The notes under the pieces were generated by a model that saw only the letters and a list, made by a program, of their open reading frames with translations, was not told the DNA's origin and made no database searches. This document shows, piece by piece, positions 5,815 to 62,706 of a stretch of DNA of 64,000 nt. A program made the translations under genes and the position numbers. Each line of letters opens with the position of its first letter. The stretch's first letter is position 1. This DNA is from Sycon ciliatum (Eukaryota > Porifera > Calcarea > Leucosolenida > Sycettidae). Location: NCBI RefSeq assembly GCF_964019385.1, contig NC_088647.1, forward strand, positions 9,281,933 through 9,345,932. The letters run 5' to 3'.

Positions 5815-8800
5815 ATGTCTGGGTTTCCCCTTGCGACTGTTCTTCCTCTTCTTCTCCTTGCCACTGCCGCGTCGTCCACTGAGAGCTACGGTGCTGGTTT
5901 TTCCGTACGGATAACGGAGAAAGGCTTTCAATATGGTGAGTTCTATAGCTCGGACAACTCGCAAAATATTCTCTCGTTCTGTGAATTTTGCCACTCTTGT
6001 TTTCAACATTTCGGTTGTTTTCAACATTTCGGTTGTTTTCAAAGGAAGCATGCGGGCGAGGTGACTCCTGACGGTTGATGGACTTCTTTTTTTGTCAGCC
6101 GACGCCCTCTGTTGCCTCTTGTCACCTATTTTATTGAAGCAGCTTTGTAAACACCAGTAGTCTTGTGCTATTTTGTGTGTCTTGGAGATACGAATGCGTA
6201 CGCATCAGTTACTAAAAAGGTTCTTGTTATGTGTACTACATGTACTGTATACATATGTACTAGTATAATTATTGTACAACTTACATAATTACTAGTACCG
6301 GTATGGTATATACACAGAAGCCTTGCTTGGCAGTTTAACATGTTTTTCTATTTTGACAGCATGTTACAAGGCGAGGACGCGTAGTGCTCCTGAAGACCAG
6401 GACTCTGCCAACCGGGTTATGGTTGTAGTCAGGAGCACTACGCGTCCCCGCCTTGTAACATGCTGTCAAAACGAAAAACATAGTACCGGTATGCAGTACT
6501 GTACAACCACAGTCAAGTAGAACCTCTCCTATTTGAGCGGCTGGAGACCGAAGGCCAAGTACATGTAGTTGCATACTTCTCAGAATTGTCTGTACCTCGG
6601 AAATACACTACATACTACTGTCATGGACATGGAAATCCGGTCGCACGTCTAGCGGCCCCAGGGCGCTGGCCATGCGCTGCAGCGCGCTGGTCATGCGCTG
6701 CAGCGCGCTGGTCATGCGCTGCAGCGCGCTGGTCATGCGCTGCAGTGCGCTGGTCGCATTGGATCAGCATGACTGTGAAACTGCACGCAGCGTTCTGTAC
6801 GCGCTGCGGGCGCCGGCCCCGGTTAATCGACTGGATTTCCATTCCCGCTACAGTAGTATCCAACACAGTACAAGCACACTGGATACTGTAGGACGCATCA
6901 TTCTCTTTAGTTCTCTTCAGGCTCACGGGACCTATTACTACTGGTGCTTGATACCATTCACACAAGCATATGCAGCAAGAGCTGAGTGTCAAGTCAGATC
7001 CTTAAATCATTTTCTGCGATGTGAAGACCAACTTAGACACCTGCACTGCATTGCGTCGGCTACACACAATTCATGATCTTTGTTGTCTTCTGCTACACAG
7101 TGTACATGAAGGTGTATCCAGCGTAGAACACTGTACTTGTTACGGAGGTAGCCTCAATTGAAGTATTATTCGTTCTCGTTCTGCTTCTTTGAATGTTGCT
7201 GAACAGTTTTCCTCTCCACGCTCTGCTAAATCGTTGCCTGTACGCGCCACGTCTAGTGCCTTGTTTCTACGCTAACACTTAGCACCGTATTCGTCATCAC
7301 GCGCTCTTATCTACATGTATGTGCTGAGTGTTGGTGTAGAGGCACGGTGTTAGGTGTGGCCGCCGCTCTTGCTATATAGTTCATTGGAGCGTAGGCACAG
7401 TTGTTGTTTTTTCCAGAGTTCTGCTTGTGATGGTATTCTTCTGAATGGTCATCGAAGTAAATCTGAGTATGGTTCAAGACAGTTAGTTGCCTTTCGAGAG
7501 TATCTCTGGGTTTATGAGCCACAGTACTCGATTGACCAACATCTCACGCCACATAAGTTGAACTTCGGCCTGCAATGTTGGCCTTGCAACTGGCATGCGC
7601 CAGTACCCGACACCGGCATTTCCTTGTCACAAGCATCACGCATCGCACCGCGGAACCTGTCTATTATTGTGAACCGTTCTCTTTTATTATTCTCTATTAC
7701 TCTATTAGTACTGACCGGTAGGCTGGAGTAGTAATGGTATTTTACTGCTCCCTGCTGGCCGCCACGAAAACTATGACATTTTTCAACACTTGACAAAATG
7801 CACCTGCCCGCAGGATGCACGGTTGATGGGAGATGCCTGGACATGGGAGGTCCAGATAAGAGAGATTGCGCTGTGTATGTAAGCAATGTTGAGCATTGCA
7901 ACATGACTGTACTATAAAGTACCGGTTGATATGCCTTTGTTCTGGGTTCCCCTCATTGGTACTTCATGCGATAGTGCCACCCAGCTTACTCTGTTCCCGT
8001 CCTGTTTACCGTCTCTTTCTTAAAAGCAGCTTGACTCTGTGGAACCCGAGCCTGTGTGATGTACTGGAATGTGTTTACAGCGTTGACATGTGTATGTGTT
8101 GACAATGCGGGCGTGTGAGATCCTTTGCCCTGTGTTCTCTGGTTTTCCTGTGTTTAGCTGCCGAGACACTCATCCCCGAAGCTGTGAGAGCCGCAATGAG
8201 AGGCTTGCAGATTCCTTCGGTGATTCCTGTGGAAAAGTCTGGATTTGAAGTGCAAATAATCAAGTAAGCGAAGACTTGAAAGAATCTGACCTGTGCACAG
8301 TGCTGTTAGGGGCATCACAAGATCTTACGTTGATTTAGAAGTCTGGCTAATTGTTATAGATGAGCTTGCAATCATCATTGACCATTTTAGGCTATATAGC
8401 CTTTCAACAATGAATGGGTGTGTTCAAGTTTGAATGTATAGTTCTCTACTAACGTATCCTGTGTCCTTACTGCTGTTGTTTCTAGCGCTACATTGCAGCC
8501 ACTAGTTATCCACACATTGAGCATCAAACCGCACAGTTCCCCATCATCGGTGGAAGTGCAGATCAATGTTGACGTACGAGGCTCGACTCACTTTCATTCG
8601 CTTTATAAAAGATTGTAAGTACGCGTTTTTTATGATCTTTGTTATGCATACAGTTAAACCTGTCTTTACCGGACGCCCCTTGTGCAGCAGAATCTATCCA
8701 GATACGACAGGATTCCTCTTGATGGAGGGAGGCATACGCGACCCACAATATGTACCGTAGTGTCGCGTATGAAAGCATGGCTCGAATAGAAGCTAGTTTT

Positions 8801-62706: not shown

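Follow-up and report, generated by a model that had tools for sequence, protein, structure and literature searches.

The window analysed here is a 64,000-nucleotide (nt) stretch of the Sycon ciliatum genome (contig C5, positions 9281933-9345932), which holds two large genes, a BPI-like gene on the + strand (5815..20850) and an FHOD-type formin gene on the - strand (34780..62706). The dinucleotide arrays in the introns of these genes are mostly GT and CT on the sense strand, and in the BPI-like gene they lie just upstream of half of the acceptors. The array pattern is real, and it was confirmed to extend beyond these two genes to others in this genome. In the reading that we propose as probable, the arrays are ordinary dinucleotide repeats grown by slippage, the base composition of transcribed introns governs where they lie and how they are oriented, and the purine orientation tends to be lost.

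Arrays upstream of acceptors

An array was defined as a perfect dinucleotide repeat of at least 6 units, scored on the sense strand, and it was assigned to an acceptor when it ended within 110 nt upstream. As the null model for the window genes, each array was placed at random within its own intron. Of the 14 acceptors of the BPI-like gene, 7 carried a GT or CT array, compared with 2.43 expected (P = 0.0009). These arrays ended 12, 44, 62, 37, 44, 46 and 57 nt before the exons 9380, 10583, 12203, 12865, 14151, 18442 and 19227, respectively, and five successive acceptors formed an uninterrupted run. The FHOD gene was near the chance level, with arrays at 2 of 19 acceptors and 1.04 expected (P = 0.25). 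Donor-side counts matched the expectation in the window genes (2 and 2.43 expected for the BPI-like donors).

To extend the analysis, the genome (538 Mb in 313 contigs) was searched for exons with protein-domain matches, and 255 were listed: 88 for the myosin head, 100 for tyrosine phosphatase and 67 for dynein. All except two dynein rows were entered (253 of 255). The 254,524 bases of sequence that were read covered 203 of the 255 matches, and 34 were dropped for in-frame stops. Very long "open frames" in the sample were rejected as not being open across introns, with 37, 38, 41 and 12 in-frame stops in L033, L032, L017 and L111, respectively. Fixed placement rules that ignored the polypyrimidine tract yielded 156 acceptors (52 per family) and 144 donors. 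Some of the matches may start inside exons, which would dilute the effect. The tests on the sample are tests on counts, with a bootstrap by gene for the acceptor fraction only.

Arrays were found at 21 of the 156 sample acceptors (16 GT, 5 CT, 0 GA and 0 CA), and they were spread over the myosin, phosphatase and dynein families (9, 6 and 6 of 52 acceptors each); the bootstrap range of this fraction was 8-19%. Extending the zone to 150 nt raised the count to 25 of 156, including two GA arrays. The density of GT arrays was 0.99/kb in the last 60 nt before exons, compared with 0.19-0.39/kb beyond 200 nt, and the corresponding densities of CT arrays were 0.57/kb and 0.04-0.24/kb. Likewise, 27 sense arrays were located 0-120 nt from the acceptor and another 27 in the 2.8-fold larger zone at 200-1500 nt (P = 2.5e-4). 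On the donor side, 14 of 144 sites had an array within 110 nt (8 GT, 3 CT and 3 CA). GT density there was 0.49/kb in the first 60 nt, compared with 0.19-0.37/kb beyond 200 nt, and a permutation of the sense arrays gave 7 with 5.7 expected (P = 0.32). An earlier note on this window had proposed testing the genome for strand bias and for enrichment at acceptors relative to intron interiors; in this sample both were found.

One explanation to be weighed is chance, by which two genes of a repeat-rich genome merely seem patterned once patterns are hunted for. The FHOD counts are at expectation and the BPI-like gene was picked after reading, both of which fit chance. So does a whole-genome word-order test, in which arrays 5-30 nt before and after the word TTTCAGG were compared, with the frequency of end and start matches estimated from the sample only. 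The counts before and after the word were 111:47 for GT, 42:21 for CA and 34:8 for CT, and 16 GA arrays lay before it. The order effect for CA is similar, and the GT ratio is therefore not readable as acceptor enrichment. The test is also a weak one: most of the words are not acceptors, several matches resemble one repeat family, and real exons have no downstream arrays anyway. However, independent exons of other genes repeat both the orientation and the enrichment, and chance is thus a very improbable explanation.

Orientation of the arrays along genes

The orientation bias was strong for both pairs of units. Over 124 sampled regions, which include some exon and possibly non-genic sequence, sense GT outnumbered CA 74 to 17 (P = 1e-9) and sense CT outnumbered GA 34 to 5 (P = 2e-6). 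In the confirmed introns of the sample and the window together, there were 40 GT, 9 CA, 17 CT and 3 GA arrays. Fifty of the 56 informative regions leaned to the sense side, and repeat orientation could therefore serve as a cheap indicator of gene strand in unannotated genomes. In the whole genome, (CT)10 gave 379,441 and 360,386 matches on the two strands, and near-equal totals are what is expected if genes occupy both strands.

The bias depended on the distance from the acceptor. The ratio of sense to antisense arrays was 27:0 within 120 nt, 11:3 at 120-200 nt and 27:8 at 200-1500 nt, and the nearest and farthest zones differed significantly (P = 0.008). Therefore, the bias is region-wide and becomes sharper at exon ends. 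Base composition showed a related gradient: with arrays masked, the T-A skew fell from 0.34 over the last 60 nt to 0.05 in the interiors (first 88 regions). The interior GC skew was about zero. Sense introns of this genome thus have T-rich ends, and they have abundant short UG and CU runs.

Seeding and selection

Arrays that are selected at splice sites can be distinguished from arrays that are seeded there by comparing arrays with the short runs from which they could grow. For this comparison, arrays of at least 12 nt were set against runs of the same unit of 6-9 nt (seeds) in the sample and the window genes. Within 150 nt of acceptors, the array-to-seed ratio was 30/125 for GT and 16/39 for CT; the corresponding interior ratios were 93/345 (P = 0.65) and 32/100 (P = 0.58). 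Because the ratios near acceptors were not significantly different, the acceptor enrichment of arrays is mostly that of short runs. Seeding is favoured here, with modest power. No published report of such a comparison was found in a limited literature search.

These ratios bear directly on the suggestion of the earlier note that the arrays act as tuning knobs of splicing. By that explanation, UG arrays recruit proteins of the CELF and TDP-43 type and CU arrays do the same for PTB, exon inclusion depends on array length, and the arrays are kept at acceptors by selection. The acceptor enrichment, with all 21 arrays at the 156 sample acceptors in the sense orientation, speaks for it, and so do the five successive BPI-like acceptors with arrays and, in the passages available, a report (PMC13174678) that the T-rich bias of human splicing-associated repeats peaks within 100 bp of the exon. 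However, the ratio of arrays to seeds is not significantly raised at acceptors, the orientation bias persists far from them (27:8 at 200-1500 nt), and FHOD, with 2 of 19, is at expectation. The suggestion thus gained no support, and we regard such a role as unlikely. If array length did alter splicing where acceptors are most densely furnished, as in the BPI-like gene, the arrays would let splicing vary through rapid mutation.

The two pyrimidine-purine orientations also differed in how far seeds had expanded. In interiors, the array-to-seed ratio was 8/72 for GA and 32/100 for CT (P = 0.011), and pooling all zones after collapsing neighbouring pieces gave an odds ratio of 3.5 for CT over GA expansion (P = 0.0016). 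This difference matters for a second alternative, in which transcription-associated mutation alone, through strand-asymmetric damage and repair, makes sense introns T-rich and biases seeds and arrays gene-wide, with no selection. The bias is indeed present throughout the sampled gene regions, the interior T-A skew is positive at 0.05, and GT seed runs are already biased. On the other hand, bias and density sharpen near exons (27:0 and 27:8, as above), and GA runs expand less than CT runs. Since the interior GC skew is about zero, the excess of CT over GA needs more than this process. As the sole cause it seems rather unlikely, though it deserves slightly more weight than the regulatory suggestion.

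The reading that we prefer, slippage-grown repeats with seeding at intron ends and loss of purine versions, would work as follows. The polypyrimidine tract and a nearby UG-rich stretch would supply the seeds, and replication slippage would lengthen them. Selection would then eliminate long repeats of (GA)n and, in the vicinity of exons, of (CA)n, since in RNA these would introduce AG acceptors, motifs resembling enhancers or stable RNA:DNA hybrids. A regulatory role would be unnecessary, yet length changes may still affect splicing.

Several observations weigh against this reading. With neighbouring pieces collapsed, the acceptor-to-interior ratio was 1.5-fold for GT (P = 0.19) and 1.9-fold for CT (P = 0.14), and there may be modest extra selection at acceptors on top of seeding. 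The GA ratio near acceptors, 4/15, is not low, and the GA deficit by itself does not separate selection from mutation. The difference between GT and CA expansion was marginal (P = 0.05), or non-significant with pieces collapsed (P = 0.15). A permutation restricted to the 77 confirmed sample introns gave 9 arrays with 5.8 expected (P = 0.08), which agrees in direction and is not significant alone. Finally, the array density of the BPI-like gene exceeds that of the genome sample (7 of 14 compared with 21 of 156 acceptors, P = 0.002), and seeding alone does not explain it; this gene was chosen as striking, though.

Sequence anatomy at the acceptors

The two kinds of array were located differently with respect to the splice site. 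All five CT arrays of the sample ended 5-15 nt from the AG, and three of the five belong to tandem myosin paralogues on contig 10. These CT arrays are in effect overgrown polypyrimidine tracts. GT arrays ended 10-110 nt from the AG. The earlier note had offered an alternative of its own, that polypyrimidine tracts simply seed such repeats and selection removes purine versions. With pyrimidine-rich and UG-rich ends as the source of seeds and purine versions lost, it is the best fit to the data, amended in that the GT arrays are not polypyrimidine tracts.

The tandem myosin paralogues (L020, L023 and L024, on contig 10 of G000) have CT arrays of 104, 210 and 40 nt, respectively, at one shared acceptor, and they form a natural length series for probing array length against splicing.

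Arrays near acceptors and donors also recall a class of introns in fish. In zebrafish introns, Lin et al. in 2016 reportedly described pairing between a CA array on the donor side and a GT array on the acceptor side, an arrangement that takes the place of the polypyrimidine tract. GT arrays do lie near acceptors in the present genome, and one BPI-like intron has a CA array 45 nt past its donor. However, GT arrays are absent from that intron, and CA was not found within 600 nt of the donor in any of the 7 array-bearing BPI-like introns. In the sample, CA was found within 110 nt of 3 of 144 donors, compared with GT at 8 of 144. The polypyrimidine tracts behind GT arrays were not found to be weaker among the first 119 acceptors (pyrimidine fraction 0.64 compared with 0.66, P = 0.47). 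With donor CA rare and no CA/GT pairs in the array-bearing BPI-like introns, the bracket model was rejected, and we consider it hardly credible for this genome; unlike the fish introns, those seen here show no pairing of an AC donor with a GT acceptor.

Thirty array-bearing acceptors, 21 from the sample and 9 from the window, were further inspected for AG-free stretches and for the motif YTNAY, with both tallies counted by eye. The array was within the AG-free stretch at 26 of the 30, and this stretch exceeded 100 nt at 18 of the 30; the median without arrays was 48 nt (first 119 acceptors). Since GT and CT arrays hold no AG, such long AG-free zones are partly built in. YTNAY was missing at 15-50 nt from 20 of the 30 array-bearing acceptors and from 61 of 135 without arrays (P = 0.04), and at 8 of the 30 it was found between the array and the AG. 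However, CTAAT or CTAAC was located between the array and the exon for the BPI-like exons 10583 and 12203 and the FHOD exon 42006.

The long AG-free stretches and the missing YTNAY motifs make a distant branch point possible for some array-bearing acceptors. At such acceptors, the AG-free microsatellite would be a long spacer of variable length that separates the 3' splice site from a remote branch point; slippage would set the distance directly, only intron-like repeats free of AG (CU and UG) would be tolerated, and long UG arrays may fold into poly-UG (pUG) structures, shortening the gap. We regard this proposal as doubtful.

Arrays and gene models in the window

In the introns of the two window genes together, the sense arrays numbered 8 CT, 13 GT, 3 CA and 1 GA. 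The nine BPI-like exons singled out in the earlier note (exons 4, 5, 6, 7, 8, 12, 13, 15 and 16 of 16, which are exons 3-7, 11, 12, 14 and 15 of the present model) all have a repeat upstream: a perfect GT or CT array at seven, a (GGT)n array at one and an imperfect GT-rich minisatellite at one. All BPI-like features are given on the + strand. Upstream of exon 9380-9456, a CT array at 9205..9309 (perfect part 9213-9308) ends 70 nt before the exon, and a GT array at 9351..9367 ends 12 nt before it. A CT-rich array at 10264..10538 (perfect run 10409-10538) ends 44 nt before exon 10583-10676, with an AG-free stretch of 372 nt. The GT array at 11867..12140 ends 62 nt before exon 12203-12266, with an AG-free stretch of 364 nt and CTAAT 27 nt before the exon. 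Exon 12865-12928 is preceded by a CT/CCTCC tract at 12808..12852, and the perfect CT run ends 37 nt before the exon. An interrupted GT array at 13955..14116 has its final perfect run ending 44 nt before exon 14151-14242, and the (GGT)n array at 17804..17831 ends 83 nt before exon 17915-18009. The combined array at 18253..18395, GT at 18253-18289 and CT at 18295-18395, ends 46 nt before exon 18442-18487. A GT array at 18984..19060 is 166 nt upstream of exon 19227-19300.

The counter-cases, which the earlier note does not mention, were few. In the BPI-like gene, they were a 16-nt CA run 480 nt upstream of exon 10583, a 47-nt CA array at 15157..15203 (45 nt past the donor of exon 14941-15111 and followed by a CT tract to 15252), and a run of 12-13 nt of GA that follows a short GT run at 19157..19180 and lies 45 nt before exon 19227. 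This GA run qualifies the earlier claim that long GA or CT tracts are always pyrimidine in sense, which nearly holds for the introns of both genes (CT 8, GA 1). The last intron has a GT-rich 24/26-mer minisatellite at 20389..20661, before the final exon 20690; it is imperfect, and no perfect 6-unit dinucleotide array was found within 150 nt upstream of this exon. It consists of a 24-bp unit in 8 copies with 97% matches and an adjoining 26-bp one.

Features of the FHOD gene are given on the - strand. The two exons noted earlier for their sense CT tracts were borne out: the perfect part of the CT array at 47707..47806 stops 22 nt short of exon 47701-47618, and the 185-nt CT array at 42065..42249 ends 58 nt before exon 42006-41821. 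A 136-nt CA array in the sense orientation, a counter-case, is located at 42780..42915 and ends 112 nt before exon 42667-42512. No array in the window is longer than the sense GT array of about 395 nt at 57057..57452, and the next acceptor found lies 5.1 kb downstream of it.

A dispersed element occurs twice in the BPI-like gene, at 13230-13618 (intron 6) and 15849-16206 (intron 8) on the + strand, and in three blocks its copies match at 88-92%. The intron 8 copy has CACGTGTACTACATG, with a short GTGT, where the intron 6 copy has identical flanks around a (GT)14 run at 13461..13494 and is about 30 nt longer. Given GTGT in one copy and (GT)14 in the other, a short GT seed thus appears to have expanded in one element copy, or an array to have been lost from the other.

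The BPI-like gene was built by splice-site and phase consistency as a 15-exon model with a single open frame to the stop codon. In the models used for both genes, AG and GT are present at all junctions. The match of the BPI-like protein to Pfam PF02886 (LBP/BPI/CETP C-terminal domain) was sub-threshold (E 0.0011, 18.8 bits, curated cut-off 23). Since this match is weak, the name "BPI-like" is fair, and no more. A search for an extra exon between 9456 and 10583 found none, and one may be missing. Human BPI was rejected as a template for spliced alignment, being too distant and giving a false chain. When a read-through frame was compared with solved structures, two matches were obtained, both of low complexity.

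For FHOD, 20 exons were found; the 3' end of the gene is uncertain, as is the donor of exon 50921. The protein has strong Pfam matches to FH2, FH3_FHOD1-3 and Formin_GBD_N. Its large exon 45040-43629 (-) contains a 27-bp tandem repeat at 44742-44849 (4 copies, 97% matches), which encodes four near-identical 9-residue units of the SPARQSVTD type.

The intergenic DNA looked at in the window (13.8 kb separating the two genes plus 5.8 kb upstream) has few arrays, and it offers no sense strand to score. A 258-residue open frame at 33088-33864 (+), with a CWHCGKLGH zinc-knuckle-like end, resembles by eye a retroelement gag and had no match in Pfam. Fragmentary open frames at 25160-25856 (+) may derive from a non-long-terminal-repeat (non-LTR) reverse transcriptase, which they resemble by eye.

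Comparison with known systems

Strand bias and enrichment at 3' splice sites are already known in kind, as passages of reports on water fleas and humans indicate. In humans, pUG repeats are described as enriched near both 5' and 3' splice sites and as unique among such dinucleotides in being non-randomly distributed (passage in PMC12276007, citing Roschdi et al. 2022). The GT arrays of the present genome resemble them in being enriched near 3' splice sites, with arrays of at least 12 units within 110 nt of 6 of 156 acceptors. They differ from what that passage describes in that CT arrays are enriched as well and the donor-side enrichment is weak.

In the human cortex, splicing-associated repeats are reported, in the part available, to have a T-rich strand bias and a repeat length linked to splicing (PMC13174678). 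The T-rich orientation that peaks close to exons is shared, and here it is known from sequence alone. AG exclusion zones with predicted distant branch points have been described for exons in the portion of PMC1431707 that was available. The 18 of 30 array-bearing acceptors with an AG-free stretch of more than 100 nt are similar to such exons, whereas the AG-free spacer here is a microsatellite and any distant branch point is putative.

Orientation is also alike in Daphnia pulex, whose intronic sense strands, according to the passages seen of PMC3152781, favour T-rich motifs and prefer CT to AG and GT to AC. The sense introns of the present genome likewise have CT over GA and GT over CA. The Daphnia passages give no splice-site positions, whereas both the acceptor-side enrichment and the array-to-seed ratio were measured in the present animal.

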